44,766 nt of DNA from a virus, in IMG/VR virus record IMGVR_UViG_3300042466_000665, positions 1-44,766 of that record; one strand, 5' to 3'. The notes beneath the pieces are model-generated. The model was not told the origin of the DNA and searched no databases. It saw only the letters and a program-made list of their open reading frames with translations. Position numbers and translations under genes: made by a program. Below are positions 245 to 32,264 of the stretch, piece by piece. Position 1 is the stretch's first letter. Each line of letters opens with the position of its first letter.

Positions 245-1888
245 TTATCTTTTAATCATTGATGTTAGTTTCGTTGATTCGTTTACATCATCATCAATAT
301 CCATTTGCAATTCTTTCTTATATTTTTTAGCAACAGCTATTGCAAATACCATAGCTTCATCTGCAGATTTAAAAGTTTTATCAACTTTACCACTTAAGTC
401 AGCCGGGTCATTAGCGTAAGTAGATTCTAAACTTACTCTAAATTCATCCGGATTACCATAATCAATATTTGAACCCATATATAATGTGTACGTTGGCATA
501 CTACCATTACTAGCATTGTATATAATAGCACCATTATCATCAATATCAGCAATACCTTCTAATCCAGTTTCTGTATTTAGGGCTTTTTCTAATGATTCTG
601 AGTGTTTGTATTTTAATTGAGATGCTTTCTTTGGAAAATTAGCTTTAGGAGTATCGGCTTTAGGAGCTTCATCACCCATTGTATCTCTATGATTCCATAC
701 TTTATTCTTATCATCCCAACGATAACCTAAATTCATAGCTGCATCAGCAAATCCGTTTTCATCAAAATCATCACTACCAAGTTCTCCGAAATCATATCCC
801 ATATCATACAACGCATCATATAATTCATCATCGGTTTGTCCATCTACCGATGCATTAGAAGTTGTTTTAGCACCTCTATCTTTTGCATAATCACCACCAA
901 ACATTGAATTTGACTTTGCAGCTGCTTTAGGTTGTTCACCTTTTTTAGCGTTAGGGTTTTCGTGAGAACCAGCTTTGATTGCAGCTTGATATGCATCTTT
1001 TGATTTGAAATGTACTAATTTCCCAGTTTCTTTACTTCTAGCTTGAAAATCTTCAGCTTCAAGTAATGATTTTAAAGTTATATTTTTCATTTTATTTTCA
1101 TTTGTTTTTTTAGATAACTCTAATTCTTTTTTGAATTTTTCATACATTGGTTTGTATTCACGAGTTGTTATTTCACCACGTAATAATTGGATTGTTTCAG
1201 GTTGTGCCATTATGTATCTCATAGATTGATAAACATATTGTGGGTCATCAAAATGATTTGAACCACCAAAAGTTCCATTATCACGACTTGAAGTGCTATC
1301 TGGGTTTTCGTATATAAATTCACCATCTTCATTATCAGTAAATCCAAAATTAAAACTTCCATCTTTATCATCGGAAAACATTACAAAATTGATAGGGCCG
1401 TTTTCAGAACTAACTATTAAACTTCCGTTTGCATTTGATGTAAAATTATACTTAAAATCTTTTTTATCTTTGGATGCAAACCAATCGTTCAATGAGATTC
1501 CAATTTTAGCAGTTCTATACATATTGAAATCATCTTCACTTGCAATATCACCAGCTACTTTATCTCCTGGTAAAAATCTATCAGCCCAAAATTTATCATC
1601 TTCAGCGTATGGTGCACCACGTTCTCTTTTCCATCCTTGTTTTCTAGTAGTGTCCGTTTTTTTAGAAGATTTATCACCTCTATCTTTTGCATAATCACCA
1701 CTATACATATTATTTGGCTTTTGCTTCTTTTTTGTTTTCTTTTCAGCTTGGCCTGCAGTTGTTTCTTTACCATTAATAGTAACTTTAGTACTATTTCTTA
1801 ATTTATGCGCACTATTATATTTGTCAAATGCGGTTTGATTACGGAATGTTAGTTCATTCAATAAAGATTTTAATCTAATATCTGCCAT
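245..1888 (-). CDS. Unknown two-unit protein with SMFGxDYxKDRG modules
   Basis: I do not recognise a named family for this 547-aa protein. It is built from two units. Unit 1 starts MADIRLKSLLNEL and carries NMYSGDYAKDRG near residues 60-70. Unit 2 starts at an internal Met (MKNITLKSLLEAED, about residue 267) and has a Lys-rich segment (SKETGKLVHFKSKDA, KAGSHE), then SNSMFGGDYAKDRG near residue 330. The same module is present once in the 1,576-aa protein at 3280-8010. The rest is hydrophilic and acidic, with no membrane segment and no enzyme motif I can identify. A host-type promoter overlapping an ATATTTATA motif lies just upstream and a strong terminator just downstream, so it forms its own transcription unit after the endolysin. 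A role as an internal virion or DNA-co-injected protein is inference only. Confidence 0.75.
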   Translation of the reverse strand: MADIRLKSLLNELTFRNQTAFDKYNSAHKLRNSTKVTINGKETTAGQAEKKTKKKQKPNNMYSGDYAKDRGDKSSKKTDTTRKQGWKRERGAPYAEDDKFWADRFLPGDKVAGDIASEDDFNMYRTAKIGISLNDWFASKDKKDFKYNFTSNANGSLIVSSENGPINFVMFSDDKDGSFNFGFTDNEDGEFIYENPDSTSSRDNGTFGGSNHFDDPQYVYQSMRYIMAQPETIQLLRGEITTREYKPMYEKFKKELELSKKTNENKMKNITLKSLLEAEDFQARSKETGKLVHFKSKDAYQAAIKAGSHENPNAKKGEQPKAAAKSNSMFGGDYAKDRGAKTTSNASVDGQTDDELYDALYDMGYDFGELGSDDFDENGFADAAMNLGYRWDDKNKVWNHRDTMGDEAPKADTPKANFPKKASQLKYKHSESLEKALNTETGLEGIADIDDNGAIIYNASNGSMPTYTLYMGSNIDYGNPDEFRVSLESTYANDPADLSGKVDKTFKSADEAMVFAIAVAKKYKKELQMDIDDDVNESTKLTSMIKR

Positions 1889-2784: not shown

Positions 2785-3216
2785 TTATTTAGATTGTCCT
2801 TCCGTAACTTCTTTATTTCCTTGTCCAAAATCAATTACTTCAAAAACCCTTGTCTGAATTTTCTTAGTACCTTCGGCGTTTGTTAATATGATTGAATTCT
2901 TAAACTTTTGCCAATTGATGACAAACGATGTATCCAACACCCCACCATTTTCTTCTTTAACTAATTCGTTAAGAGCATTAATAGTGTAAAGTGAGTTTGA
3001 TTCTTTCTTTCTATGTATTAGGATTGTATTTTCCAACGGAGTTTCCGGTTGAAATGCAGTGTCTATGTTGTATGTTACAAACAATTCATCTAAATTAGAC
3101 TTGTTTTGTAATATGTATATATAGTTGTAGACTATATGATAAGTCTCTCTTATTTGTTGTAAGGTATTTTGTAACTCCTCTTTTGTTGTAAACGTACAAA
3201 GTAATTGTGTCTTCAT
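2785..3216 (-). CDS. Hypothetical protein, 143 aa
   Basis: I do not recognise this protein. It begins MKTQLLCTFTTKEELQNTLQQ, is mixed alpha/beta with no membrane segment, and ends in a charged tail (QGNKEVTEGQSK). A good ribosome binding site (AGAGGAAGG) lies just before the ATG, and an ATATTTATA motif lies 24 bases upstream. It is the first gene of a two-gene unit with the endolysin, 8 bases away. A lysis-associated or virion role is possible from position only. Confidence 0.8.
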   Translation of the reverse strand: MKTQLLCTFTTKEELQNTLQQIRETYHIVYNYIYILQNKSNLDELFVTYNIDTAFQPETPLENTILIHRKKESNSLYTINALNELVKEENGGVLDTSFVINWQKFKNSIILTNAEGTKKIQTRVFEVIDFGQGNKEVTEGQSK

Positions 3217-3279: not shown

Positions 3280-6200
3280 TTATTTTTTCATAACTTGAAG
3301 ATATTTTAATCTAAATGCTTTAACTTTAGGATGATTTGGTGAAATTTTATCCAATTCAGCCAATCTTAATCCAATTTCCGATTGAGTCTTTTTATCTAAA
3401 CGTCCTAATTCATTTCCAAATTCTTCTTCCAAATCATTCAAAGATGAACCAACCACTACCTTTCTATCTTTCTCGTCCCATTTAGTATAATCAGATGTAC
3501 CATATTTGAATGCCAATCCACCAAATGTGTTTTGAGCCATTTCAAATGTAGGTGCAGCTCCAATTCCTCTAGTTCTAATTTTAGCTTCAAACAATGGAAT
3601 TGCTGATTCTTTACCATTTGAATCTTTAACACTAATAGCTATTGACATTACACCACCTTTTGTTGATACACTAATTTTATCATTAATAGCATCTTCTATT
3701 TTCTTTTTAAGTGCTGCTTTTTTCTTAGGGTCAGTTTCTTTTTCAAATTTAGCGTATTCTTTATCTATACCAAATAATTGAACTAACTTTTCTTTTTTCA
3801 TTTCAATTGCCGGGTCAGTACCATATACAACTTTCAATTCATCTAAGTTAGGATTTTCACCAAAAAGAATATCAGAAATGTGAGTTTCATCTCTTACTAA
3901 ATCTTTAACAATCTTTTGGTTTTCAGGTGTACCAAAGTCTTTTGCTATTGAATCAGTCATTTCTCTATCTAATCCTCTTAATTTACCATATGCAGGTGAT
4001 ATTTTTGATATCTCTGGGTTTTGGTAAAATTGAGATAATAATTTCATACTATCTCCACCCGTATCAGTTAATATATTATTTACAAAATCATCACAACTAA
4101 CATCTTTTAATTTTTTCTTTCCAGTTCTTTTTAAAATATGAGCTACTCTTTTATCAAGTGGGTCAAATGTATCTGCTGGTTTTTTCTTCATACCTTCCCA
4201 AGCAGAACATGCTGCTTTTTTGTTTTTGGTAATATCTTTAACACCCTGTGCAAATTCTTCTGTTCTTCTTTGTACATAATGTTCTGGTGCTGAATTTTCT
4301 GAAAGATTAAATCCTCTCTCTTTTAAGTTTTCAGACATTTCCGTATATCCACCATTAAAAATGAATACTTTTAAATCCTTTTTAAGAGATACACCAATAC
4401 GTTTACCATCTTTAGTTTTAACAAACATATCAGATGATGTACCATGATTTTGAGAACCAACCAAAGCCCTTCCTTCAGGGTTATCCCATCCAAATTCCTC
4501 AACATTATTAAATCCAATTTCTCTTTCCATTAAATCTAATGTATTTAATGCAGATTTAATCCAAGAATCAGTTAAATATGAATCAGGTCCTACGAATTTT
4601 TTTAATTCAGCTGCTACCATATTTCTAGCTTCTTCATATGATTTACCACTATTCATTATTTCTTTAATTCGAATAGAACCCAATACAACCGCAGATTCAC
4701 CAGCTCTACTATCAGGACTTCCCAAACCTACACCTTTGTTTTTCTTTTTTGGTTTTGGCTCTTTAAATGATTCACCATTCTTTTTAGCATCTGCTTTTCT
4801 TTTTTCCCAAGCTTTTATTTCACTTGCTAATTCAGCCTTTTCAGCAGCTTCTCTTTTAGCTACTTCTGATTTAGTTAATTTTAAAGAATCAACTACTGAT
4901 TTTTTAGTGGATTCTCTATATTTCTTTTTAGTTGCTTCATCTTTTGGAGATGGTAATTCAGATATTTCCTTCTTAGCTGCATTAGCTACTTTAGTAACTG
5001 CACCTTTTTGTGATGGAGTTAAATCTAAATCAGTAATAGGTACTAAATCGGTTTTCTTTACTTTTGATTGTTGTGGTTTACCAGCTTCTGATATTGATTC
5101 ATTGGCTAATTTTTTAAGTATATGTGTTATAGGTCCATCGGCTGTTTTCGAATAATATCCACCACCTCTATGGTAGAACCCACTAAATTCTTTCGATGGA
5201 TTACTTACTTCACCAGGCACAGTTGAAAAATCATCTGCTGAAAATCCTCTTACTTCTTTTGGAATTGCGTTATCTAATCTTTTCTTAAAAACATTTTTCA
5301 TTACCGTTTTCTTAAAAGGTTGCTTACCAATTCTAGTGTGAGCCATAAGAGCTCTTGCGGTTGCGTTTATCTTTGTATCATCCCAATCAGGATACTTTTT
5401 TCTTAAATCAATTTTTGCTTTTGCAATATCAGCAGAATCTCTACCACTACCAGCTCCACCTTTTTGAACAATATTTCTATTAGTATTTCTTTGAGGTGCC
5501 TCTGGGTCTACAACACGAGGTAATCCTTGCTGAGCTTGTGGTTTATCTTTAATACTATCCCAAGTTGCCTTCATAACATCATTTGCCTTTTTATTAAATT
5601 CCTTATCATCCATATCAGGATATCTTCTTTTTAATAAATTAGTAATTTTGTCTCTATTAGCTAGATTCCACTTAAATTCAGCATCCGTTTTTGGTTTGGC
5701 AGTTCCTCTTGGTCTTTCAGGTTCAGTTGGTTTTTCCGGTTCAGCTGCAGGTCTTCTTCCACTACCAGGTCCTCCTTTTGCAACACCACCTCTATCTTTT
5801 TGATAATCAGCGCCAAACATAGATGCTCCCTTTACAGGTTCATCCGCTTTGCTTTGTTTAGTATCCATTGGTTCATGTGAGCCTGATTTAACAGCAGCAT
5901 CCATAGCATCTTTTGATTTGAATAATACTATCTTACCACTATCCTTTGATTTTGCTTTAAATTGTTCACCAGCCTCACCAATAAATCCATAAATCATTTC
6001 TAACACTAACTCATCTACTAAATGTAAATGTTCTGCTTTTACACCAGTAGTATCACCATCAACTTCACCATTTTCTTTCTTTTCATTATATGAGTCAACC
6101 ATCTGCTCCATCATTTCAGGAGTAATTTCCATTTCTTCAAGTCCTTTTGCAATCAATTCAGTAAACTTAACCATATTTGCATCCATTTCAGCTTCACCTT

Positions 6201-8010
6201 CGGCATCGGCAAATACTGCGGCCTTACCAACTCCCTTTAGAATTGTCTCACCAATAATGTGAGGTATAAACTCCATTGCTACGTGCTTTCCAAATGCAGC
6301 AACACCGTGTGATAATCCACCAAATGCAGCGCCAAATACTGCAGTAGTAACTACTTTAAATGCAACTGCTTTAAGTGCTTTTTGTTCGTGCTCACTTACA
6401 GGTTTACCACTAAAAAAGTTTTTAATACCAGCCCCAGCTTCTTTAAATTCCTCAACCTCATGCTTAGCGCCTTTCTTAATTGCCTTCCAAGCACCAGCTG
6501 CTTTATCCTTTAAAGCCTGTCCTAAACTTCTACGTTCCTTTGAACCAGGTGCTCCTTCATTTCTATCAAAGAATGCCTTTTCCTTTTCAGTCCAATTTTC
6601 TATTTTTTTCTTTATCTTATCGGTAACTTTTGGTGCAGATGTTACTTTTTGTGGTTCTTCTTTATTTGCATCAGCTTTCTTAGCTGCGATACCCATATCT
6701 TCTGCAAACTTATTTGCCATTGGAATTGCATCTTTAATATCCATATCCAATACCGTTGTTTTCATTGGTATTTGCTTATCAGGATTTGCAGCGTTATGAG
6801 CTACAATTGCTGCCCATCTATGGTGTCCATCTATTACGTGTCCATCTCTACTCACATATATTGGTGCTGTAATCTTTGGATGATTAGGGTCTTTTTCTAA
6901 AGCTCCCATCATACCGACTACCTTTGCTCCAACTAAATCTTTTTGCGTTGCTTTTAATTTATCAGCAGGTATTTCAGTTTGTAAGGTCTTAATACCTTTC
7001 TCTTTTAACATTTCTTTGAAAACAGGTTCAGTATCTACTTCACCACTTGCATCTACATCCATCCCAGCTGCTCTACTACCAGGTTGAGCAGTACCTTTAA
7101 ATTGTGGCATCTCATCTCTTGGTATTCCTAAATTATCATCACAATATAAGTTTGTACCTGGCACAGTCACATCACATAAATTAATGTTTGGTGCTGGTTC
7201 TCCTTTAGCCTTTGCATCAGCTACTTGTTGTGCTACATTTTTAATATCAGTATTAAATTTTTCTAATTGCGCAGGCTCTACTCCATCTGGAATATCAGAA
7301 CCTCCAGCAAATGTGTCTGGGTCAGCTTCCGGCATTTCCTTTGCTACATCCTTACTATCTATTGGAGCAAATTTAGAATCTAATGGATTTGGCTCATCTT
7401 TAGCTAAAGCATCTTTTTTATCACTAGCTTCTTTATCTTTTTGTGCTAATTTATCATTTGCTGCTTTCTCTCTATCCATTCTTGCTGCCATAGCCGGGTC
7501 TGCTTTTGGGTCAAACATCGATGCCGCTTGCTTTTGTTTTTCCTTTTCAGCATCAGCTCCACCAGCTTTTTCACCTTTACCATCTTCAGGTTTTTTGGGT
7601 TGTCCCTCACCACCTAATTCTTTATTTAATGCATCTCTTTCTTCAGAACCTTCTGGCGGTAACATTTTTTCAGCTGCATCTCTAGCAGGACTTCCTTCAG
7701 GCTGTCTTAATAGATTTCCAACAATACCTTCTTTATCTTCACCGCTTTTACTTTTATAATTTACTTTTTTATTTAAGATAGGATTAGTAAAATTTTTATC
7801 TTCTTCCGCAATATTTTGAGGAGTCTTTCCCTTTTCAGTTAAAAGATTTTCAATTAGGATATCTTCTATTTGAGATATTCCCATTTCTTTTAATACAATA
7901 CGCAACTCTTTTAAGTGAGTTGGGTTTTTCACATCAGGTATACCATCTTTTAATCGATAGGCCCAATCAGATACGATTTCGTTTATTAATTCAGTTATGT
8001 TCATATTCAT
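3280..8010 (-). CDS. Giant multidomain protein with ParB-like motif (polyvalent-like)
   Basis: This 1,576-aa protein is mostly hydrophilic. Residues 1-60 form a helical N-terminal domain. About 110-275 is a charged low-complexity region. About 340-440 contains YVSRDGHVIDGHHRWAAI, the ParB/sulfiredoxin-fold signature. About 545-600 is a long hydrophobic, Gly/Ala/Val-rich stretch that could insert in a membrane. About 680-740 is the KSKDSGKIVLFKSKDA...SMFGADYQKDRG module shared with the 547-aa protein. The C-terminal 450 residues include SSDMFVKTKDGKRIGVSLKK, which resembles the D-x(n)-[S]xK core of PD-(D/E)xK nucleases. Such architectures resemble the large polyvalent proteins of phages that are thought to enter the cell with DNA. 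The start overlaps the nuclease stop (TAATG), so the two genes are translationally coupled. Individual domain calls other than the DGHHRWAA motif are tentative. Confidence 0.75.
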   Translation of the reverse strand: MNMNITELINEIVSDWAYRLKDGIPDVKNPTHLKELRIVLKEMGISQIEDILIENLLTEKGKTPQNIAEEDKNFTNPILNKKVNYKSKSGEDKEGIVGNLLRQPEGSPARDAAEKMLPPEGSEERDALNKELGGEGQPKKPEDGKGEKAGGADAEKEKQKQAASMFDPKADPAMAARMDREKAANDKLAQKDKEASDKKDALAKDEPNPLDSKFAPIDSKDVAKEMPEADPDTFAGGSDIPDGVEPAQLEKFNTDIKNVAQQVADAKAKGEPAPNINLCDVTVPGTNLYCDDNLGIPRDEMPQFKGTAQPGSRAAGMDVDASGEVDTEPVFKEMLKEKGIKTLQTEIPADKLKATQKDLVGAKVVGMMGALEKDPNHPKITAPIYVSRDGHVIDGHHRWAAIVAHNAANPDKQIPMKTTVLDMDIKDAIPMANKFAEDMGIAAKKADANKEEPQKVTSAPKVTDKIKKKIENWTEKEKAFFDRNEGAPGSKERRSLGQALKDKAAGAWKAIKKGAKHEVEEFKEAGAGIKNFFSGKPVSEHEQKALKAVAFKVVTTAVFGAAFGGLSHGVAAFGKHVAMEFIPHIIGETILKGVGKAAVFADAEGEAEMDANMVKFTELIAKGLEEMEITPEMMEQMVDSYNEKKENGEVDGDTTGVKAEHLHLVDELVLEMIYGFIGEAGEQFKAKSKDSGKIVLFKSKDAMDAAVKSGSHEPMDTKQSKADEPVKGASMFGADYQKDRGGVAKGGPGSGRRPAAEPEKPTEPERPRGTAKPKTDAEFKWNLANRDKITNLLKRRYPDMDDKEFNKKANDVMKATWDSIKDKPQAQQGLPRVVDPEAPQRNTNRNIVQKGGAGSGRDSADIAKAKIDLRKKYPDWDDTKINATARALMAHTRIGKQPFKKTVMKNVFKKRLDNAIPKEVRGFSADDFSTVPGEVSNPSKEFSGFYHRGGGYYSKTADGPITHILKKLANESISEAGKPQQSKVKKTDLVPITDLDLTPSQKGAVTKVANAAKKEISELPSPKDEATKKKYRESTKKSVVDSLKLTKSEVAKREAAEKAELASEIKAWEKRKADAKKNGESFKEPKPKKKNKGVGLGSPDSRAGESAVVLGSIRIKEIMNSGKSYEEARNMVAAELKKFVGPDSYLTDSWIKSALNTLDLMEREIGFNNVEEFGWDNPEGRALVGSQNHGTSSDMFVKTKDGKRIGVSLKKDLKVFIFNGGYTEMSENLKERGFNLSENSAPEHYVQRRTEEFAQGVKDITKNKKAACSAWEGMKKKPADTFDPLDKRVAHILKRTGKKKLKDVSCDDFVNNILTDTGGDSMKLLSQFYQNPEISKISPAYGKLRGLDREMTDSIAKDFGTPENQKIVKDLVRDETHISDILFGENPNLDELKVVYGTDPAIEMKKEKLVQLFGIDKEYAKFEKETDPKKKAALKKKIEDAINDKISVSTKGGVMSIAISVKDSNGKESAIPLFEAKIRTRGIGAAPTFEMAQNTFGGLAFKYGTSDYTKWDEKDRKVVVGSSLNDLEEEFGNELGRLDKKTQSEIGLRLAELDKISPNHPKVKAFRLKYLQVMKK

Positions 8011-8612
8011 TAAAATTTGTGGTCGTTTGCTTCACATACCATTTCCAACTCATCCCAGTGAAATTTTGGTTTTTCATTTAGAAATACATAACACTTCCAT
8101 TTCTTTTGTTTTTCAAAATAGATATGTTTTTGCAAGTGGGATGGAATTGCTGCTCCAGTTGCTACTCGTTTTGCAGGAGTATCAAAGAATGTTTTTATTA
8201 ATACAGTAATATTTTCAGTATCATCCCATTTACGGATTTGTTCCTCTAACATTCTCCATTCACCTCTATTAAGATATTTGTCCTGCATTATACAATTTAA
8301 GTAAGAAAATGTTTGTTTTAGATTTACCATATTATCAGAAAATGTTGCAGCTGGTGCACCATGTCCTTTATCATATATGTTAGCTTTATAATCTTCACCA
8401 TCTGATGTTTTGATATTTGCTTCTTTATAAAAATCCATTGCCCCTCTATTCACATTTGTAGGACGGTTAGTAGAACGATACTTAATTACTAAGGGTTGTT
8501 CTAATGATTGTGAGTATAAAACCTCAAACACATTGTTTTTAATTCTTACATTTTGTCCAAAGGAAACCAAAGAAAGGATTAAAAAACTAAAAAGGATAAC
8601 GATTTTCTTCAT
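8010..8612 (-). CDS. Exported DNA/RNA non-specific endonuclease (NUC family)
   Basis: This 200-aa protein has a typical signal peptide (MKKIVILFSFLILSLVSFG, cleavage near residue 19-20). The mature part has the beta-beta-alpha-metal NUC1 signature: YDKGHGAPAATF at 80-91, where DKGH replaces the usual DRGH and His84 is the general base. Asn106 (YLNCIMQ) and LNRGEWRMLE at 114-123 match the metal-binding Asn and the following helix of Serratia-type nucleases. At 200 aa it is near the minimal family size. It would act in the periplasm or outside the cell, hydrolysing nucleic acid without sequence specificity. It is coupled to the giant protein (stop/start overlap TAATG) and preceded by an ATATTTATA motif. 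The gene may have been acquired from a Bacteroidota host. Confidence 0.88.
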   Translation of the reverse strand: MKKIVILFSFLILSLVSFGQNVRIKNNVFEVLYSQSLEQPLVIKYRSTNRPTNVNRGAMDFYKEANIKTSDGEDYKANIYDKGHGAPAATFSDNMVNLKQTFSYLNCIMQDKYLNRGEWRMLEEQIRKWDDTENITVLIKTFFDTPAKRVATGAAIPSHLQKHIYFEKQKKWKCYVFLNEKPKFHWDELEMVCEANDHKF

Positions 8613-8651: not shown

Positions 8652-9938
8652 TTATAGTTTTCCGTAATCTAAACCCCAACTAGCCTTAACAGGAAACCCA
8701 CTTCCTTCAATTATTTCTTTCAATCCCTTAATCAAATCCCTATCAACATCAGTCGGAACATCAAAAAGAAACGAGTCATAGGTATATAAACAAAAGTTAA
8801 TACCACTCCCTCTTATATAATCCAATATCTTTCTCATAACCTCAATATTCATTTCAGTCTCAACGGCTTGGAGTAGATAGTTGAATACCTTTTGTGCATT
8901 TGGTTGTTCTATCCACTCTAACGGAATCTCTCTATGTGGTGTTTGTAGGAATCCTTTCTTTTGTACATCAATCCATAAGGTATCAATGTAATCAGCTACC
9001 GAATTGAAATATGGGATTTGTCTGAAGTCATCATCAATACCACCATAAAGTAATTGGAACGTAATTCCCTTCGATTCATCCACACTACAACCATATTGTT
9101 CAGCTAACCACTCATGCACCGAAGTTGTTGGTAGTTCGAAGTTCACCAACTTACCAATTAGTCGTGGGTGATATGCGTTGTAATCCATTTGTAGGAATAT
9201 CCCATCCGATACAAAACATTCTCTACTACCATCGGTTTTATTTAAGGCTGCATAGTTCACACCACCATGTCTATTTGATGGTCTACCTGTCACCGTAAAT
9301 GGATTGTATTCGGTGTACACTAAGTTATCGGAGGATACTTGCTTTTGAGCTTGAGGCCATCTATCAATAAATTTTTTCCCATCGACACGGATTCCAAATT
9401 GTTCGATATCTGAAAGGGTTGGTATGAACACTTCGTTGTACCATTTAAGTGTAGGGGTATAAGGTTCTTTATGGAAGTACTTACCGAATTGCGGTTCTAT
9501 TGCTTCTACAATCTTCATTAGAGGAAGGGATTGTATCAAGTCATCTCTATACCCTTTGTGAGTTAGAGTTGAAAGGAGAGGATTTAAAGGGGCTTCATAA
9601 TCAATTACCTTTGCTTCCTTTCTAAAGTATGCCGAATCTACATCGTATAGATTTACTGAAACATTAAGAGTATGTAATATCTTCTTTTTTTGGAATACCC
9701 ACTTTTGTCCGTTGGTATTTATGATAGATTCTATTTGCTCATTACTTAGCGATAGAGCGTCTGTATGTTTATGAGGTAAAATGTATAAGCCATCGGAACA
9801 TCGTACAACTACGAGCGAAAGGGGAGTATTTAATGGATGCTTACTATTATCTACCCACAATGGATACCAAATAGATGCTTCCGTTTCCAGCTTTTCTTTT
9901 AGTTGATTGACTTCCTCAATAGACTCAATAATCTTCAT
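8652..9938 (-). CDS. Divergent family-A (Pol I-like) DNA polymerase, 428 aa
   Basis: The palm/finger core of a family-A polymerase is visible: the TGRPSNRHGGVNYAALN region; motif A FLQMDYNAYHPRL near residue 250, with the first catalytic Asp; motif B KGITFQLLYGG near 300, where the Lys and Tyr-Gly align with KAINFGLIYG; and motif C YTYDSFLFDV near 385, with the second catalytic Asp. Deviations are that motif B lacks the usual Arg four residues before the Lys, and the His and Glu of VHDE in motif C are Tyr and Ser. The first 150 residues may be a degenerate 3'-5' exonuclease fold without the acidic metal ligands. The start is set at 9936-9938 (MKIIESIEEVNQ). The open frame extends further upstream, but that part is tmRNA sequence. 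The promoter TATCTTTG ends 5 bases before this ATG. The gene is far from a replication module, so its role is uncertain. Confidence 0.85.
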   Translation of the reverse strand: MKIIESIEEVNQLKEKLETEASIWYPLWVDNSKHPLNTPLSLVVVRCSDGLYILPHKHTDALSLSNEQIESIINTNGQKWVFQKKKILHTLNVSVNLYDVDSAYFRKEAKVIDYEAPLNPLLSTLTHKGYRDDLIQSLPLMKIVEAIEPQFGKYFHKEPYTPTLKWYNEVFIPTLSDIEQFGIRVDGKKFIDRWPQAQKQVSSDNLVYTEYNPFTVTGRPSNRHGGVNYAALNKTDGSRECFVSDGIFLQMDYNAYHPRLIGKLVNFELPTTSVHEWLAEQYGCSVDESKGITFQLLYGGIDDDFRQIPYFNSVADYIDTLWIDVQKKGFLQTPHREIPLEWIEQPNAQKVFNYLLQAVETEMNIEVMRKILDYIRGSGINFCLYTYDSFLFDVPTDVDRDLIKGLKEIIEGSGFPVKASWGLDYGKL

Positions 9939-9943
9939 AGGTA

Positions 9944-9975
9944 CAAAGATACAAAAAAAATCCCAAACTACCAAA
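9944..9975 (-). promoter_or_regulatory. Host-type promoter of the polymerase gene
   Basis: On the minus strand, TTTG (9972-9975, in TTTGGTAG) lies exactly 20 bases from TATCTTTG (9944-9951), a perfect Bacteroidota promoter. The ATG at 9938 is only 5 bases past the box, so the mRNA should be leaderless or nearly so. The -33 box lies inside the hairpin of the tmRNA terminator. Confidence 0.8.
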
Positions 9976-9989
9976 TATAGTTCGGGATT
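9953..9989 (-). terminator. Intrinsic terminator of the tmRNA
   Basis: On the minus strand, AATCCCGAACTA pairs with TAGTTTGGGATT (12 bp including one G-T) around a 7-base loop, followed by a T8 run (9953-9960). It starts 5 bases after the tmRNA 3' end. The loop and 3' arm contain the TTTGGTAG box of the next promoter. Confidence 0.9.
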
Positions 9990-9993
9990 ATTG

Positions 9994-10376
9994 TGGAGGT
10001 GATGGGATTCGAACCCATGTCTTACAAAGTAACCATAATACCAGCATGTCACACGTTTAGGATAAAGTTTAATCTTATTCACTTTCCAAAATAATTGGGG
10101 CCGTATGGTTAGTACAGCGTTTCCACCAATTCGTTGATTCGGGCTCAACGAATAAAGCCTTTGTAAACACTTCTGTTCCTAGGTTATATGTGCACCGACC
10201 CGATTGTTGTGATTAGGCTGCTACAGCGTAATCAGCACCTACGAAAGCCATAAGGTCTTCGAAGGTCATAGTTGACATTTCGTCATTTATTGTTTTGTAC
10301 AGATTTAAAGACATCTAGCACTTCTGTCTACGTGTGATACTATAATTCTCATTGTAATCAATTCCGAGTCACCCCC
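9994..10376 (-). ncRNA. ssrA: Phage-encoded tmRNA (one-piece)
   Basis: The 5' end GGGGGTGACTCGGAATTGAT pairs with the 3' end CACCTCC plus discriminator A to form a 7-bp acceptor stem. The T arm is ATGGGTTCGAATCCCAT. CCA is not encoded. CACACG and CGTGTG, and TTACAA and TTGTAA, form the long helix that joins the two ends, and TTCGTTGA / TCAACGAA is an 8-bp hairpin typical of a pseudoknot stem. The tag frame ends GCTGATTACGCTGTAGCAGCC TAA (Ala-Asp-Tyr-Ala-Val-Ala-Ala-stop, 10216-10239), a normal protease-degron ending. The frame stays open upstream through MAFVG and TFEDL, so the resume codon and tag length are uncertain. The length of about 383 nt is typical. It should rescue stalled ribosomes with host SmpB. 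A host-type promoter and a strong terminator flank it. Confidence 0.93.
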
Positions 10377-13822: not shown

Positions 13823-16224
13823 TATTGATATTTTTTAAATAATTCAGTACCTTTATCTATTGCCTTACCAGCATCAGAGAATTTTCTTGATTTTTCCTTT
13901 ACCGTACCAGATTGATAAACGGTTGCTATATACTTTTTATCATCTTCCTTAACCCAAAGTTCGTAGTTATCTTTACCATCTTTTATAAAGTTTCCCTTAC
14001 TAGCATCTGGATTTTGTCTCAATGGTGCTAGTGTTGGTAATTTAAACGCATCTATACTAACAGGTGCTTTTATACCAACCAAATTTCTTTTTTCCAATGA
14101 AATTATACTAGCTGGGTCAAACCTAGGTTTAACTTTATCTAAAGGTAATGCTATATTATCCGCATCACCATCTGATTTTTTAGTTGTACTATCACCCTCA
14201 GGTCCAAATTTAAATGTATCTGAATTATTTATATCTCCGGCTATTTGAGTATTTTTTGAAGATTCTTCTACTGAATATTTTTGTCCAGCTCGTAATGCTC
14301 TTGGTAATTTATCAAATCCATATAAGTAACCATCGCTTGTATTATATTTAGCTTCAAGTAATTTAATAGTTATAGCAACATCAACAATCATTGGTAATTT
14401 ATAATTATCAATAGATGTTTCTTCTTTATTTATAGAAAATTTAGCATCATCCGCAATACCACTAGCTTCGGTCATTCCAACATACCAAGGAGAATTATCA
14501 TCCATTGTATATGATAATGATTCAATAAAACATTCTCTATTTTTATATAAATTACCTAAAGTAAATTGTAAGAATGGTGCTCTAGCTCCGATACCACCAG
14601 CATAACCTTGAGGATATGCCAATGATGTTAAAAAGTTTATTCTTTGCCAAGCAGCAATGTGTTGAACAGGTGTTGTTGAATACACTCTAAAATTAAATGT
14701 AAGACTTCTTTCAATACCAGTATATGTATAATTATTGAATGGAGTTCCTATAAATTTAGCAGAATCCCAAGATGGAGATATAGTTTCAGATACACCACTT
14801 ATTGTTGCTCTAAAATTTACTGCCATTCCAGTTGCCAATGATTTAAATTTTAATGTTATAAAATCATAATCATCTAAAAAACTACCATCTGATAATACTA
14901 ATTTAGTATCATTTGGTCCTAAACTATACGGAAGTTTTTCGTTTAAATAATCCGATTTTATTGCCGAATCTATTCCCAATTTAGTTCTCATACTAACCTT
15001 TGGGTCTACTTGGCTATCTTTTTTCCTAGAGTATTGATTTATAGATACATCATCTCTTGATATTGAATTTCCGTTTATACCACCACCAGCCAATAAAGCT
15101 TCTAACTTTGAAGATAAATCATTTCTTAAAGCTGGGGAATCTGCTTGAGGGTCAACTGTAGATGTTTGTGTAACCTTTTCTTTTGTACCAGGTATTATAT
15201 CACCTATATTTAACCCACCGGCAATACTTTTTTGACCTAATTTTCTAGCTCCAGATAATTTAGAATCTAATTTACTTTTGTTATCAGATATAAAATCAGT
15301 TACTTTTGCTGCTGGGTTATTTATTAAATTTAATGGTATTATACCATCTCCAATTCCTTTTGATTTTGGAACTAATTTATTAACCTTATTTTGTACTTCA
15401 GAGCCACCACCAGCTTCTTTTGTTTCTTTAGCTACTAAAATAGATGAAAGGTCATTTCTTTTAAAATAATCTTCATCGTTTGGAGCTATTGTTTCGGAAT
15501 ATTTATCAGTACTATTATATTGTATTTCTTCTTTTCCTTTTTTTGCTAAGTTTTGTGCGGCCACTTTTGGAGAACCATACAATGCTTTTTTAACTTCGCC
15601 TTTGAAAAAATCAATACCAGCTCCCACTAATTTATTTGGTATATCTGCAACAGGTCCTTTAACACTTGATGCTAATATTTTACCTAATGTCTTACCAATA
15701 AGATTACCCTCTCTACCATTTTTAATAGCAGATAATGTAATCATTGTATCGTTTTCTTTACCATCTTTAAATGATTGATTAAGAACGATTTTAGTTGGAA
15801 TTAAATTTTGAGGAAATTCTATACCAAGTTTACTTGCTATGTTTTCACCAACTTGCTTTATTTTATTAGTAGCGTTTCCTATTATACCATTACTACCACC
15901 TTGTCCACCAGTTGCTCCTTTCATAATCTCAACCATATCGGTTTTTTGATTATTCAATCTGAACACATCTACACCATATATTACAGGACCACTTAATTTA
16001 CTTATTACTCTAAGTCCAGTAGTTTCTTCCTCAAGTTTAGTTTCTTTTGTTCTAACAGAAGCTGTTTTTCGTATTGCATTTGCTCCTTTAAATGGCAAAT
16101 CTAATAATGGGTTATACGGAGTTATTGGCGGTTCTTTACTATTACGAATGTCATAGTTTTGCTGAGCCGTCTTACCGTTATCCAACACTTTGGTCTTAAA
16201 TAATTCTTCTAATGTTTTACCCAT
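13822..16224 (-). CDS. Large tail tube/baseplate junction protein
   Basis: This 800-aa protein lies between the tape measure and the LysM wedge protein. Residues 1-430 are low-complexity, Lys/Gly/Asn-rich and probably extended. About 450-640 is a conserved-looking beta domain (DFITLKFKSLATGMAVNFRA, IERSLTFNFRVYSTTPVQHI, ESLSYTMDDNSPWYVG, LPMIVDVAITIKLLEAKY). That pattern resembles tube-like baseplate proteins such as T4 gp48/gp54, which start tube polymerisation. The C-terminal 100 residues are a separate charged segment (DKKYIATVYQSGTVKEKSRK). The junction assignment is inferred from gene order and the beta pattern. Confidence 0.65.
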   Translation of the reverse strand: MGKTLEELFKTKVLDNGKTAQQNYDIRNSKEPPITPYNPLLDLPFKGANAIRKTASVRTKETKLEEETTGLRVISKLSGPVIYGVDVFRLNNQKTDMVEIMKGATGGQGGSNGIIGNATNKIKQVGENIASKLGIEFPQNLIPTKIVLNQSFKDGKENDTMITLSAIKNGREGNLIGKTLGKILASSVKGPVADIPNKLVGAGIDFFKGEVKKALYGSPKVAAQNLAKKGKEEIQYNSTDKYSETIAPNDEDYFKRNDLSSILVAKETKEAGGGSEVQNKVNKLVPKSKGIGDGIIPLNLINNPAAKVTDFISDNKSKLDSKLSGARKLGQKSIAGGLNIGDIIPGTKEKVTQTSTVDPQADSPALRNDLSSKLEALLAGGGINGNSISRDDVSINQYSRKKDSQVDPKVSMRTKLGIDSAIKSDYLNEKLPYSLGPNDTKLVLSDGSFLDDYDFITLKFKSLATGMAVNFRATISGVSETISPSWDSAKFIGTPFNNYTYTGIERSLTFNFRVYSTTPVQHIAAWQRINFLTSLAYPQGYAGGIGARAPFLQFTLGNLYKNRECFIESLSYTMDDNSPWYVGMTEASGIADDAKFSINKEETSIDNYKLPMIVDVAITIKLLEAKYNTSDGYLYGFDKLPRALRAGQKYSVEESSKNTQIAGDINNSDTFKFGPEGDSTTKKSDGDADNIALPLDKVKPRFDPASIISLEKRNLVGIKAPVSIDAFKLPTLAPLRQNPDASKGNFIKDGKDNYELWVKEDDKKYIATVYQSGTVKEKSRKFSDAGKAIDKGTELFKKYQ

Positions 16225-24575: not shown

Positions 24576-27500
24576 TTATTTGTTTTCTAAATCTTCTATT
24601 CTATCTAATAAATATTCATTTTGTGCTTTTAAGAAATTAATTTCATTTCTTAATTCTTTAACAGATTGTACAAGTACAGGTATTAAAGATTCCATAGCAA
24701 GTGTTAGTAATCCACTTTTTTCATCTGTTCTTACTAATTCAGGAAAAACACTTTGGACATTTTGAGCCGTAAAGCCCATTTTAATCTTAGTATCTTCTAC
24801 ATATTCCGGGTCTACAGAATGTATTTTATATGTATAATAGATAGGTGTTAGTTGATTTACTTTATCAAGAACATTGACAATTACACCATGTATATTTTTA
24901 ACACTAGCATCAGAATAACCACTCCAACCATAATAATATGGATATAATACTACACCACCATATGAACCTCCACCATTTAAACAATATACGTTGTTATATC
25001 CATCAGTTTGCATTACAAGGTTATATCCACCAGATGAACGAACATATAATCCAAATCCACCTAAAACATCTAAGTTACCATCAGCGTTATAATTTAGATT
25101 CACAAAATTACGGAATCTAGAAGCACCCCTTTGTACGTTAAATGCTACCCATCCATATGTTGTAGAATCGAAAGAAGCACAGTTGTTAGGTCTACTATAA
25201 TAGAATGTCCAACCAAATTGCTGATTGTAAATACCTCCATTACCACTTTCAAACATCAAGTTATTGTGATAACCAGAAGGGTCATTAAAGTTTTGTCCAC
25301 CATATCCAGAACGATAGTAACCAAATGTTTCCCAAGGAGTATATGATGATTGGAAGTTGGTTCTAAAGTGTCCACCATAAGATTGTTGGTATAAACCACC
25401 ACCGCCTTGGTTTCTAAACCATCCGTTTGCATAAACCTCTTGGAATGTAGGTCCAGAATCAGTTCTTACGTTTTGATTCATATAGTTGGACATCCAACCC
25501 ATATATCTATTCCAATAGTTTCCGTCTCTAGCCAATTGGTGAGATTCTAAACCATCTCCGCCATAACGGAAAATATGATAACCATTTGCTAACGTTTGAT
25601 AATATGTGTGAGCACTATGCCATTGAATTTTATTGTATTCACCAGTCCATCCACCAGAATCACTATACAACATATGCCCTGCATTGATGTATATGTTATT
25701 AGCGTTTACAAAGTTTAATCTATTTGTAGAAGCAGGGTCACAATAATATCCAGTATTATCTCTATCATAGTAGATATATGCTCTAAAATCATTTCCGTAA
25801 GTAATACGATACAACTCCATATGAGCGTTACCATATTCAATACGAATTTGCCAGTTACCAGAGTTATTCAACATACCAAAACCAGAACCATCCCAATATC
25901 CACAATATCCTCTACTATCCGATTCATAGTTATTATACATTTGAATACCACCATAGCCATATCCACCACCAGCTGATTTCCAATATCCATTATTGGTGTA
26001 CCAGTGCATTCCTCTACTTTGGTTATAAAGTCCGTGTCCGTTTGTATTATTTCTAAACCATCCGTTTACATATAAATCATAGAAAGTAGGATTCGCATCA
26101 GTTCTTACGTTTTGATTCATATAGTTGGACATCCAACCCATATATCTATTCCAATAGTTTCCGTCTCTAGCCAATTGGTGAGATTCTAAACCATCTCCGC
26201 CATAACGGAAAATATGATAACCATTATTAATTACCTGATAGTATGTATGTGAGCTATGCCATTGAATCTTATTATATTCACCAGTCCATCCACCACTATC
26301 ACTATATAACATATATCCAGCATAAATGTAATGGTTGTTTGAAGCTACAGAGTTAAATCTAGCATCACCTTGCCCACTTCCGAAATAGTATGCACTGTTA
26401 TCTCTATCGTAGTAAATCGTTGCGTATGCTGCGTTTTCAATATATACAGGTCCACCAGCATACCAGTTAAGATATGTAGTATATCCGTTTCTTGGGTCTA
26501 AGTGTAAGTTACCATTTGTTGTTACAACAGATGCCCAACTATCTACTCTACCATTTGAACCAACATATAAATAAGCTCCCCAAGTTGGGTTAGGTCCATG
26601 TAAAGTACCACCTCTAAATCTTCCAGAGTTACCACTATCATTTGGGTCTACATAATATCCACCATCATTAGCATCTCTAAAAATTGTTGCGTATATAGTA
26701 CCATCAGAACCAAAATATTTATTACCATTCCAATAATCCTCTTTCAATATTCTATACCCATTCATGTACATCTCATTCACATTGAAGTAGAAGTTACTTC
26801 TATCAGTATAAATGTGAGCATGTCCAGAGTTTGCAGGTCCAAATTCTATGTATCCATACGGAGTATTGTGTCTATAACCCCAACTACCTCCAGCTAAATA
26901 GTAACTACCATCACCATAATCTATTGATGAAAAACGAGAACGTCCATTAGGGTCTGCAAAGAATCCTGTATTTTGTTGGTCATAGAAAATAGGTGCTCTC
27001 ATATCACCATATGATATTGCTACACCATTTGTTGAATTTATTGAGAATCTTAAGTTATCACCACCAGTTGAGTTATTTCTTTGAGTATTACTTTCACCAT
27101 AAAAACGGAATATACCATGTGCATTATTTGTACCAAATGCAATACCATCATAATACCAAATTTTATGGTAGTTATCACCTTCAGCTCTTACTATTAAAGA
27201 ACCATCGTTTAATACTAAACCTATACCACCACTTTTACTATTTGCACTCATTCCTGCTGTAATAGGACCTGATACATAAAGTCTACCATCGTGGTCTAAT
27301 CTCATTTTAGCGGTACTCCAGTCAGTACTACTTACTCTTGATGTGTACCAATAATGTGAGTGGTTTTCAGATGCCGTATTACCAATACTTCTCCAATGTC
27401 CTGAATAATACCTTATATCATTACCATAACTACGAATCATACCATCATAGCTATCAACTATACCAAGCTCTAAAGAAGGATAATCACCAAGTCCACCGAA

Positions 27501-30500
27501 TTTCAAACCAACAGTTCCGTTAGAACCACCACCACCTTGTGCATTTTGAATTCCTAAATACCATATACGAGAATTACCGTTAGGGTCTACAAAATAACTT
27601 GTTGGGTCATTTGTATCTCTGAATATTGTACCATATACTTCACTTGATGCGTACATTGTACCACCAGTGAATATACTATTATTTGTTGCAAGACCGGGAT
27701 ATGAATTCGGATTTATTTGTGCAGCAGTTGCAGAACCAGGGTCACCAAAACCACCATCACCCAAAGTCCAACCAGCACTTTGATAGTTATCAGTCATTGC
27801 AACATAAAGAGTACCAGTATAATTTATATAAATTTGTACATAGTGAGTATCATATGTTCCACTTCTTCTAATTCTTATTTCATTGAATACACCACCGGCA
27901 CTATACCAAGACTTACCAAGCATTGTAATATCAGCAACTCCTCCAAATGATATACCAGCATTAAATTTCATTGAACCATGTAATCCACTTTCATAATCCC
28001 AAATGTGGAACGTAGCCATTGCTCTAGTACCACCATTAGTTGCTATTGTGTACCATCTACCAGCAACAACACTAAATGTAGCAGTATCACGTACTGACCA
28101 CCCTCTTACATTTAATTGATTTAAGTTTGAAGTTGATGCTGGATTTACATAATACCCAGTATCATTTGAATCTTCAAATATAGGTGCTCTGAATGAATTT
28201 GCTTCTTGTGTGTAATCTCCAGTTATTGTTAAGTTTGCAGTATTTGCTACATATGAGTTACCATGTGCGTAGAAATGGAGTTCTCCTTTATTCCAGTTAG
28301 TATCTAAACCAGAACCATATCCGGTCTTTCTACCCATTATAGAAGCGTATGTAGAATTGTAGCCACCACTTGTACTTCTAGCACTAAATGCTATTATTGG
28401 AGAGAATGCATTATCAGTATTATTTTCATTATGCATTGCCAATCCAATCAGCGTACCTCTTACGCTTGAAGCGGTACTACCAACTAATGCCATTATTGGG
28501 TCTCTACCATCAGCTGCCCAGTTAGAACCATTAGATGTCAATAATCTACTATTTCTATCCGTCCAATGTACTGAACCAGCATCCGTATTTGTAAATGAAT
28601 GTGGATAGTTATTGATACCATCTGCTCTAATTGCTCCAGCAAAATATCCACTACCAACTTCGTTTATTGAAAATAATTCGTTAGATGCTTTTATTGCGTT
28701 ATTACCAACTATAAATCTACTATCCGTTTGGTTGTTATTAGAATCTATATTTACACGCACATCACCAGCTCCCGTTAAATATAATACATTACCAGATGAA
28801 TTACTTTGATGTAAAATCACATCATATGTATTATCTCTATATAAACCAGCATTAGTATCTGATAAATAAAATGCACCACCATTACCACCTGCATTTGAAT
28901 ATATTGAACTTTTTATCCAAGCTACACCATTGTTTGCTACTTCGAATGATGCACCACCAGTACCAACTCCACTTACAGCAAATCCTTCACTAGCACCACC
29001 ACCTGTCCAAATAATATTTTTAAGTTGTGAACCTAAATTAGTTGTTGATGTTGTTGTTCTAAATCTAGCTCCCCAAGTATCAGGCTCACTATTAACAGAA
29101 ATCAATGCAGCATTTGGTAGATTTAAAACACTAGTAAGAGTTAAAGATGCAAATGTTGGTGAATCGGTTGTTCTCACATACTGATTCATATTGTAAGCGT
29201 AAATTTGGTCAACACTATTTAATATTTGTTGCCAACTACTCCATGTTGATGCCCCAGTTCCTAATCTACTCCAAATTCTACCTGCTGCAGTATATGCAAT
29301 TTGTATTGGAGCTCCGCCACTTAAATCAGTACTACTACCATAACTTCTCCAAAACATTTGTCCGTTATATGTACCACCATCACTTAATCCGTTTGTACTA
29401 TTTGCTTTAAAGTCAAAATAAACTCCAGCATTTTTACTTGATGGTGTATCGTTTGTATTTCTAGTATCATTTGAATCAACTGCTTCTGCTCTATCAGCAG
29501 TACCTGTTAAGTTTGAAGTTACGTTTGCGAATGTTACAGAATCGGTTGTTCTAACATTCTGATTCATTGCGTACAATTCGTTAGCACCTTGTCCAGTATC
29601 AACCGTAGTAAAAGTTACTGCATCGGTTGTACGAACATTTTGATTCATTGCGTACAATTCGTTAGCACCTTGTCCAGTATTAACGGTAGTAAAAGTTACT
29701 GCATCGGTTGTACGAACATTCTGGTCCATTAAATAAACTTCGGTTGCTCCTTGTCCTGTGTTTATTGTACCAGTAAGTACTACATTTCCAGCAACATAAA
29801 GACCATCATCAGCATACCATCTATCATTTGCTTCTTCCCAATAAAATGCTTTTGTTGCGGCATTACCTCTTTTAACTTCTATACCAGCGTTTTCAGTTGG
29901 TGTAGTTCCTACTCCAATATCTGCGTTAAGTGTAATAATATTATCACCTACGTTTAAAGTTGTTGTATTAATATATGTTGTAGTACCACTTACAGTAAGG
30001 TTACCACTAATTGTAGCATCCCCAGTTACTGTCAATGTACTACCATCGAATCTTAAATTTGCTTCAACAGTTCCGTTGGGAGCTGAACCATTTAGTGTAA
30101 TTACACCATTATCAGTTGTACCAGTTAATGCTAATAATCCAGAAGAACCAGCTGAGCCTGATGTACCTCCACTACCGGATGTACCTCTTGTTCCAGATGA
30201 GCCACCAGAGCCTGATGTACCTGCCGTACCACCACTTCCGCTTGTACCTGCCGTTCCACCACTTCCGCTTGTACCAGATGTACCACCACTTCCGCTTGTT
30301 CCAGCAGAACCCGATGTACCAGCACTACCACTAGTCCCAGCTGAACCCGATGTTCCGGCAGAACCCGATGTACCAGCACTACCACTAGTCCCTGCCGAAC
30401 CAGCACTACCGCTTGTTCCAGCAGAACCCGATGTTCCTCCACTTCCGCTTGTACCAGTTGAGCCGGATGTACCTGCCGAACCGCTTGTTCCAGTTGAACC

Positions 30501-32264
30501 TGAAGAACCTGCTGAACCGCTTGTACCAGCCGAACCAGCAGAACCTGTTGTACCAGCCGAACCAGCAGAACCTGTTGTACCAGCCGAACCAGCACTACCG
30601 CTTGTACCACTGCTTCCTCCACTACCAGAAGTTCCCGATGTACCACCACTACCAGAAGTTCCTGATGAACCAGCAGAACCTGCCGAACCACCACTACCAG
30701 TTGAACCCGATGTACCAGCTGAACCAGCCGAACCAGTTGAACCAGCACTACCGCTTGTACCAGCAGAACCGCTTGTACCTCCACTACCAGTTGTACCAGC
30801 CGAACCAGCACTACCAGAAGTTCCTGAAGAACCCGATGTACCACTTGAACCACTACTTCCCCCACTACCGCTTGTACCAGCAGAACCTCCAGTTCCACCT
30901 GCCCCAGACAAACCACTTGAACCACCACTACCAGTTGAGCCTGAAGTTCCCGAAGAACCTGATGTACCGCTCGTACCACCAGTTCCGCTTGTACCAGCTG
31001 AACCACCAGCTCCACTTATACCGCCAGAGCCGGATGTACCACCACTACCAGATGAACCATTTGTTCCTGATGTACCCGAACTACCATCTTTACCGCTTGT
31101 ACCAGCTGAACCATCTTTACCAGAAGTTCCTGTTGTACCACTTGAACCAGTTGTGCCCGATGTACCCGATGAGCCAGTCGTACCACTACTACCAGTTGTA
31201 CCCGATGAGCCTGAACTACCAGAAGAACCTGATGTTCCTCCACTACCACTACTTCCACTCGTACCATCAATTCCAGAAGAGCCTGATGTACCACCAGAGC
31301 CACTTGTACCACCAGAACCTGATGTTCCTCCACTACCACTACTTCCACTACTTCCGCTTGAACCAGATGTACCAGCAGAACCTGTTGAGCCGGATGAACC
31401 AGAACTTCCCGAAGTTCCACTTGAACCACTACTTCCTCCACTACCGCTACTTCCACTACTTCCGCTTGTGCCAGATGTACCTCCAGAGCCTGATGTACCA
31501 CCACTTCCAGAAGTTCCTGATGAGCCGCTTGAACCAGTTGTACCCGATGAACCGCTTGAACCCGTTGTACCTGACGTACCAGAAGTTCCCGATGTTGCTG
31601 CTGCTGTTTTTGTACCTATCTTACCAGTTGTAGTATTAATAACCAATACTTCGTTGGTTGTTAAATCCGTTCTTAATCCATCTATAAATACAGAACCACT
31701 AATAGCTAAACTACCAGTAATTTCTTGCTTATCAATTACGTTATCACCAAATTTGTTTGAACCAGATGAGAATATTACTGAAGATGATATAAATGTTGTA
31801 TGTAATTGAGTTGTTGTAATTTTTCCAGCTACAGTTATATCTCCTTTAAAAATACCACTACCAGTTACTACTAAAAAATCCGTAACAGTAACTCCACTAT
31901 TAACTTCAAGTCCTTTGTTTGGAGAAATTACTGCAATTGCCGAACCTGATTTTAATCTATCTATATCACCAATTGATGCAGCTGATATATTAAATAGTCC
32001 GTTACCATCACCTCTAAATAAAGATGCTGATAGTGATGATGAAACATTAAGTGAGCCTGAGATTTTAGTATCGGCTTTTATTTGAAACGGATTATTACCA
32101 AATGAATCAATTTCATCCGTTTGTATTTTAGAAGCAGTAAAGTTTCCTACAACATTTACAGATTCCGATGATACATTTAATATAGATGCCCCACTCACAA
32201 AAAGTGATACACTATTTACACTAGTCTGATTTAAACCATTAGGACTTTTACCGTTAAACTCCAT
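24576..32264 (-). CDS. Giant tail fibre with collagen-like stalk and S74 chaperone
   Basis: This is a 2,562-aa receptor-binding fibre. Residues 1-220 carry '[19 protein letters not shown]' beta modules shared with the 3,448-aa fibre. About 225-710 is a Gly-X-Y collagen-like stalk using Ser, Thr and Ala instead of Pro. Three near-identical 27-residue units ([20 protein letters not shown]) follow. About 1300-2450 has many 'D.nDTGYYVDP' shaft repeats and a duplicated block around [19 protein letters not shown]. The last 110 residues are a peptidase S74 intramolecular chaperone: YSDASVKNI gives the Ser and Lys of the self-cleavage site, followed by [17 protein letters not shown] and a terminal coiled coil ([20 protein letters not shown]). 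The chaperone trimerises the fibre and is then cut off. The start ATG follows the 110-aa gene by 17 bases. Confidence 0.93.
25461..25586. repeat. 126-bp direct repeat, copy 1 (fibre gene)
   Basis: Identical by eye to 26100-26225, with an offset of 639 bp (213 codons, in frame). It encodes the block around [18 protein letters not shown] in the S74 fibre. The flanks are more diverged copies of the same shaft segment. Confidence 0.9.
26100..26225. repeat. 126-bp direct repeat, copy 2 (fibre gene)
   Basis: Second copy of 25461-25586. Recombination between the two copies would delete or duplicate 213 codons without shifting the frame. Confidence 0.9.
29540..29760. repeat. Tandem repeats of about 81 bp in fibre gene
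   Basis: Three near-identical in-frame units encode [26 protein letters not shown], with a few base differences between copies. They lie just after the collagen-like stalk. Confidence 0.8.
30140..31590 (-). repeat. Collagen-like Gly-X-Y coding repeat, fibre 1
   Basis: Period-9 DNA encoding [14 protein letters not shown] triplets (about residues 225-710 of the 2,562-aa fibre). It also produces long spurious open frames on both strands. It is a likely target for in-frame expansion or contraction. Confidence 0.9.

Follow-up and report, generated by a model that had tools for sequence, protein, structure and literature searches.

In phage T4, the prohead protease gp21 cuts after the motif L/I-x-E, the site at which it trims Alt being ITE-6 (PMC9026906, PMC5694885); the T4 internal proteins (IPs) block type IV restriction enzymes in a subtype-specific manner (PMC12373910). 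In phage P1, DarB is part of a system that protects the phage from type I restriction, and it carries an N-terminal packaging signal (PMC9024508). Here we describe a gene to be set beside these systems, in a 44,766-bp window (positions 1 to 44,766 of the IMG/VR record IMGVR_UViG_3300042466_000665, the whole stretch of DNA that was analysed), which is probably a fragment of a phage genome. The gene encodes P0001, a 1,576-residue polyvalent-like protein that, judged from its sequence, is probably loaded into the prohead, processed by the prohead protease and injected. An initial annotation, made from the DNA letters, had located this open reading frame (ORF) at its exact coordinates and left out the strand, which is minus; ORF analysis of the window gives an ATG start codon. 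The features of P0001 are as follows (↓ marks a candidate cleavage site).

3280 to 8010, minus strand: main gene, encoding P0001, 1,576 residues (ORF analysis and relatives)
7825 to 8010, minus strand: residues 1-62, N-terminal leader and small helical domain, xWAYRxxxGxPxxKNPxHxxEL (alignment and model)
6691 to 7143, minus strand: residues 290-440, ParB/sulfiredoxin-like domain (PHROG_2859, E 1e-19; relatives; model)
6289 to 6354, minus strand: residues 553-574, mildly hydrophobic run of 22 residues, the longest without charge (conserved; no confident fold)
5971 to 5988, minus strand: residues 675-680, GFIGE↓A junction, candidate prohead-protease site (I-x-E↓A) at the end of the conserved sequence
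5788 to 5961, minus strand: residues 684-741, type-1 (SMFG) module, a beta-beta-alpha mini-domain
5086 to 5202, minus strand: residues 937-975, type-2 module (FYHRGGGYYSK...ITH), ending in I-S-E↓A at residue 975 (sequence)
3283 to 4743, minus strand: residues 1090-1576, variable C-terminal domain (E1105, D1194, S1208-L-K1210; AlphaFold2)

Relatives of P0001, all metagenomic and with genes called by simple longest-ORF rules, were collected from 19 loci in a first scan and from 66 in a scan with residues 225-680. Conservation of residues 1 to ~680 extended over dozens of T4-type viral contigs, and past the junction there was nothing common to all relatives. One contig (L001) encodes complete P0001 at 100% identity and other near-complete relatives match residues 1 to ~740 at 70-80% identity; recurring in this way, P0001 is a maintained gene. 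We compared the window piece by piece with 13 relatives (tblastn, cut-off E ≤ 1e-3). The product of the adjoining Endonuclease_NS gene was 81-94% identical in 12 of the 13, residues 225-465 (the ParB region) were 78-95% identical and residues 466-680 68-94% identical (63% and 50%, respectively, in the more distant L144); identity fell to 41-58% in the type-1 module, residues 1090-1576 gave no match at this cut-off in any of the 13, and the gene downstream of the exchanged C-terminus was 92-99% identical. Since the replaced part is flanked on both sides by conserved sequence, this pattern points to recombination. A group of short relatives on T4-type contigs (L120, L121, L123, L124 and L126; 596-673 residues) share the C-terminus of the window protein, followed by the same downstream gene; they consist only of an N-terminal domain of ~58 residues similar to residues 1-62 of P0001, in most cases the type-1 module (a type-2-like stretch instead in L124), and the C-terminal domain. 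As these lack the ParB/hydrophobic block, it seems that the block was inserted into a simpler design of leader, module and effector. A tblastn search of cultured phages with the L120 protein gave no match, and there was no relative of it in the genome contigs. In four other loci (L163, L167, L169 and L170) the domain order is apparently permuted, with the hydrophobic block ahead of the ParB domain, which suggests frequent shuffling.

Among the closest annotated matches to the gp23 of one relative were those of Flavobacterium phage vB_FspM_immuto, at 63% identity over 76% of the query, and of Microcystis phage Mel-JY01, at 56% identity over 90%; further matches were to classical T4-type phages and to Rhodothermus phage RM378. 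The phage of the window is accordingly T4-type; we infer, not securely, a Flavobacterium-like host.

In relatives the junction reads IYGFI-x-E followed by A or V. The type-1 module behind it (consensus FxAxSKxxGKxxxFKxKxxxxxAxKxGSH plus SMFGADYQKDRG) is modelled by AlphaFold2 as strand-strand-helix, and a profile of it found 33 copies, so that the SMFG module named in the initial annotation is real and repeated in other proteins; a tblastn search of cultured phages with the 59-residue module gave no match. An [LI]xE motif lies 0-16 residues upstream of 20 of the 21 non-redundant type-1 modules (near-identical modules removed), against 14.9% at random positions within the same module-bearing proteins; the binomial p-value of 5e-16, which carries no phylogenetic correction, is too small because many of these modules are related by descent, and the counts are partly post hoc, as motif and module had been noticed in these sequences beforehand. 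Motif and module occur together in several different contexts, namely in N-terminal leaders, at internal junctions and in head-cluster proteins. P0001 itself begins MNMNITELINE, in which ITE-7 and INE-11 fit the gp21 rule on sequence alone. Residues 745-900 (5311-5778, minus strand) contain two KGG(P/A)GSGR segments and similar short helical pieces (RRYPDMDDKEFNKKANDVM and KKYPDWDDTKINATARALM), a degenerate internal repeat.

A more independent test than the module counts is the comparison of head-cluster ORFs. In relatives, the interval from portal to gp23 (E 2e-76) holds an S77 protease gene (L041, Peptidase_S77, E 4e-29), a gene that we name gp22-like from its position and sequence, and many small ORFs starting like MIKLKxLLxE. 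Among 164 non-redundant head-cluster ORFs, 52% had [LI]xE in residues 2-22 (21% when shuffled), compared with 17% of 265 downstream ORFs (17% when shuffled; Fisher p 2e-14 between the two sets). The type-1 module stands directly behind the leader in two of the portal-gp23 ORFs (L041:5274-6206 and L052:2988-3521), type-2-like sequence (YTHIGYGKY) is present in head-cluster leader proteins of L050 and L044, and L044 also encodes, upstream of gp22/gp23, a protein that shares the ParB domain (L044:2722-5460). A 1,360-residue protein with cytidylyltransferase-like, DUF5661 and ParB-like parts is encoded directly before TerL and portal in G013 (L199:4014-8096); its start (MNNLSNFLVEQILKEA) has a leader-like LVE/ILKE stretch. 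In the first 12 contigs, searches for the S77 protease and gp23 families returned no more than a single gp23, and the S77 search of 19 further short contigs was empty; outside the window, a gp21/S77 protease and a gp23-type capsid go together in the phages G012 (274 kb) and G014 (136 kb), each a single record in which a relative of P0001 occurs along with a homologue of the S77 protease. Delivery with the phage DNA, which had been proposed for P0001 at the outset, is favoured by the leader and protease-site motifs and by the occurrence of the same leader and module in head-cluster proteins.

Within the conserved carrier, DGHHRW occupies residues 394-399 (positions 6814-6831) and DGHHRWAA residues 394-401, the latter invariant in an 8-sequence alignment and almost so in one of 30 sequences. 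In PHROGs the ParB region matched a family whose function is unknown and the other matches were weak, a Pfam search of P0001 gave no match and phmmer against the PDB nothing useful; tblastn relatives of the ParB region are annotated as PLxRFG, DarB-like antirestriction or internal virion proteins. An AlphaFold2 model of residues 1-757 (30 sequences) was weak overall (predicted local distance difference test score, pLDDT, 60; predicted template-modelling score, pTM, 0.36) and better at about residues 10-57, 77-131, 290-440 and 681-713. In this model residues 342-439 run strand-helix-strand-strand-helix-strand-helix, which is the order expected of the ParB/sulfiredoxin (Srx) fold. The three top Foldseek matches were to human sulfiredoxin (E 0.4-0.6, target TM 0.45-0.49) and the fifth to a ParB-N domain, none significant; a profile of the ParB region searched against the PDB was led by 1vk1 and free serine kinase (E 0.3-0.5), which we take to be members of the ParB/Srx superfamily and which matched only around DGHHR. 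DdrB-like ParB domains have a conserved active-site arginine and, where strand 2 ends, an Asp or Asn, and an extra helix bearing a conserved tyrosine is specific to them; in P0001, which was compared by features, D394-G-H-H-R398 is conserved, the modelled order of elements fits, and the Srx and ParB-N matches are not significant. The initial reading of DGHHRWAA as a ParB/Srx-like domain is supported by these top matches, below significance as they are, and by the DarB-like and PLxRFG relatives. The long hydrophobic segment of the same reading is present and conserved and proved to be modest, marginally membrane-like at most (best 19-residue Kyte-Doolittle mean in P0001 1.66; uncharged run of 22 residues).

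The C-termini carried behind the junction fall into at least four groups mutually without detectable BLAST similarity. Clustering placed the window protein in a group of 22; the other groups had 20, 5, 5 and 2 members, and three C-termini stood alone. In a separate BLASTP comparison the window C-terminus was distantly similar to those of L004, L005, L008 and L017 (E 1e-8 to 0.012). Profile comparison related clusters 1 and 5 (72%) and, weakly, 0 and 3 (35%), and no others; high scores of the ParB profile against clusters 1 and 4, and of 1 against 4, were disregarded, as they arose from ParB sequence that the clipped ends still contained. The AlphaFold2 model of residues 1090-1576 (12 sequences; pLDDT 83.8, pTM 0.79) has the topology helix-E, strand-D, strand-xxK, which fits PD-(D/E)xK, and E1105, W1175-D1176, S1192, D1194 and S1208-L-K1210 are invariant in the 12 sequences; cluster 0 has conserved E, [S/T]xD and SxK, and cluster 1 separately keeps E, TxD and SxK. 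From sequence and model we infer that the C-terminus is nuclease-like. The PD-(D/E)xK core first suggested for this region thus stands as an E-D-SxK pattern with a fitting topology, and falls short in being non-canonical and in having no significant PDB match; the profile of the C-terminus gave nothing useful against the PDB, and the matches in BFVD at E ≤ 0.001 were three uncharacterised phage proteins. Structure prediction, which had been named as a check, gave for P0001 a fitting order of ParB elements and a fitting C-terminal topology and no significant PDB fold match.

Two further proteins bear on the nature of the tip. The protein of L149:5332-9024 has a C-terminus with an HNH-like pattern recognized by eye (LDHHVPYS...NWDLMETPLNQLKNS), which Pfam did not confirm; apparently, by sequence, the shared carrier here bears a nuclease of another type. 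In the cultured Flavobacterium phage immuto, the 353-residue hypothetical protein immuto26A_193 (L127:4532-5593), which starts MSVVDKIVIEWAFRCKKGYPDMNNP, has an N-terminus resembling that of P0001 (weakly, tblastn E ~3), followed by a canonical-looking PD-(D/E)xK stretch, GDVKIGTQDIEIK (D-x8-ExK). These proteins, and the conservation of E, D and SxK in two C-terminal groups, speak against P0001 being mainly a prohead core or structural protein whose variable C-termini are fillers devoid of enzymatic activity. The many small leader-bearing ORFs that adjoin gp22 in relatives would agree with such a structural role, as would the serine in place of Asp/Glu in the putative catalytic motif; all told, we regard it as highly improbable.

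The neighbouring genes that matter to the argument are these.

8010 to 8612, minus strand: Endonuclease_NS gene, 200 residues (Pfam E 5e-19; apparent signal peptide read from sequence)
2785 to 3216, minus strand: downstream gene, 143 residues, 92-99% identical whichever C-terminus precedes it
245 to 1888, minus strand: second leader-plus-module protein, 547 residues (type-1 module profile)

The stop codon of the Endonuclease_NS gene and the start codon of P0001 share one base (TAATG), and the nuclease gene adjoins P0001 in most relatives checked; the coupling to a secreted nuclease gene that the initial annotation described is thereby confirmed. The downstream gene, being so similar whatever the C-terminus, is not a cognate immunity gene. 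The 547-residue protein appears from its sequence to be two leader-plus-module proteins fused, with an internal second leader MKNITLKSLLE↓A; in L007 two leader-plus-module genes adjoin (14721-15509 and 15494-). The window also contains a contractile-tail gene cluster, a lysin gene and, in the tail region, a phage transfer-messenger RNA (tmRNA; 9993-10376, minus strand) with the tag DEMSTMTFEDLMAFVGADYAVAA. A polymerase-like ORF listed from TTG (8652-10148) overlaps this tmRNA; relatives begin the gene later (428 residues), so this TTG start is probably wrong. Very long tail-fibre-like proteins of 2,562 and 3,448 residues with extended repeats are encoded at 24576-32264 and 34320-44666 (minus strand).

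Several points count against packaging of P0001 and against a nuclease at its tip. Besides the shared ancestry of the modules counted above, L/I-x-E is short and common, with 21 occurrences in P0001; the window, being a fragment, has no head genes of its own, and the P0001 gene sits between tail/lysis genes and gp32/uvsX, outside the head cluster; the PDB matches of the ParB-like domain were not significant in either the Foldseek search of the model or the profile search; Foldseek of the C-terminal model gave no PDB match at E ≤ 0.001, the best restriction-enzyme match being EcoO109I at E 1.4; and with Ser replacing D/E in (D/E)xK the site could be inactive. In relatives, gp32, RecA/UvsX and helicase genes lie downstream of the P0001 locus; together with the translational coupling to the secreted nuclease, this would suit an enzyme made late, for DNA metabolism or superinfection exclusion, that stays in the cytoplasm without ever being packaged and works with Endonuclease_NS in the infected cell. 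Such an enzyme would leave unexplained the association of the module with L/I-x-E, the presence of leader-plus-module and ParB proteins within or next to head clusters and the neighbouring leader-family gene, and we consider it unlikely. The position between tail/baseplate genes and the peptidoglycan-degrading lysin gene might also suggest an effector associated with the tail or baseplate and carried there rather than in the head; Pfam and PHROGs found no tail-attachment domain in P0001 and the relatives of its module are located in head clusters, not tail clusters, which makes this quite improbable.

The ORF and its architecture, the boundary between conserved and variable sequence, the association of motif and module, and the head-cluster modules and protease gene of relatives are computational observations, and the initial annotation had neither the layout of carrier and variable tip, nor the likely protease release site, nor a role for SMFG as a module of head proteins. 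If P0001 is packaged, processed and injected, the leader and small helical domain would direct it into the prohead core, like the capsid targeting sequence of T4 internal proteins, and a gp21-type protease would cut after L/I-x-E near the N-terminus and at GFI-x-E↓A (residue 679), freeing a C-terminal part, with the SMFG mini-domain first and the nuclease-like domain last, from the conserved ParB/Srx carrier. One or both parts would then reach the cell together with the DNA and there, at an early stage, act on nucleic acid, be it host DNA, host defence elements or rival phages, and the C-terminal domain would be exchanged through recombination because its targets vary, as an arms race with the DNA of hosts or rivals would lead one to expect. 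The antirestriction roles of T4 internal proteins and DarB make counteraction of host defence plausible by analogy; for nuclease-like tips, attack on DNA fits at least as well. Tentatively, and with somewhat less than even confidence, we further propose that mini-domains of types 1 and 2 behind prohead-protease sites let unrelated nuclease domains swap on a ParB carrier that is delivered by the virion into the next host, a polymorphic-toxin strategy without immunity genes in T4-type phages related to Flavobacterium phages.

If the reading of P0001 as an injected head protein is true, leader, L/I-x-E and mini-domain would together predict injected uncharacterised phage proteins from sequence, and the unclassified, fast-exchanging nuclease-like domains would be candidates for host-takeover or counter-defence enzymes. 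Phages of Flavobacterium-like hosts, for which few such tools exist to our knowledge, would also gain a packaging signal that can be tested; immuto, being cultured, is a practical test system.

In comparison with known systems, P0001 shares with PD-(D/E)xK nucleases such as restriction enzymes the modelled order helix-E, strand-D, strand-xxK, and differs in its SxK, a large extra helical part and the want of a significant PDB match. A conserved N-terminal carrier, a processing step and C-termini exchanged by recombination are also traits of polymorphic toxins (Zhang et al. 2012, PMC3482391); however, P0001 has no detected secretion-system trafficking domain, its delivery is predicted to be via the virion, and we do not class it as a polymorphic toxin because no type-specific immunity gene was found beside it (the downstream gene being nearly the same across C-terminal types). 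Like the polyvalent proteins (Iyer et al. 2017, PMC5512222), which join two or more effector domains in one chain, it is a long phage protein of several domains, one of them ParB/Srx-like, and its injection is predicted; the ParB-like domain and the nuclease-like C-terminus, the latter without a significant PDB match, may be two such effector domains. If the C-terminus is a nuclease, the predicted second nuclease-like domain and a toxin-like layout would set P0001 apart. With P1 DarB and DdrB it shares large size, multiple domains (DarB being virion-packaged) and a recognisably related ParB-like domain, whereas only this region of ~110-190 residues matches DarB-like proteins, no methylase, helicase or metallopeptidase domain was detected in P0001, and the head is T4-type, not P1-type. 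With T4 IPI-III and Alt, compared by features, it shares the L/I-x-E leader, the S77 protease and gp23-type head of its relatives, and a variable content like that of the anti-restriction IP genes; it is far larger, has a ParB/Srx-like domain and an internal candidate cleavage site, and is one gene with exchangeable C-termini where the IPs are encoded by separate small ip genes. Should the reading of P0001 as an injected head protein hold, one gene would bring together capsid targeting as in T4, the polyvalent (DarB-like) proteins and the polymorphic toxins.
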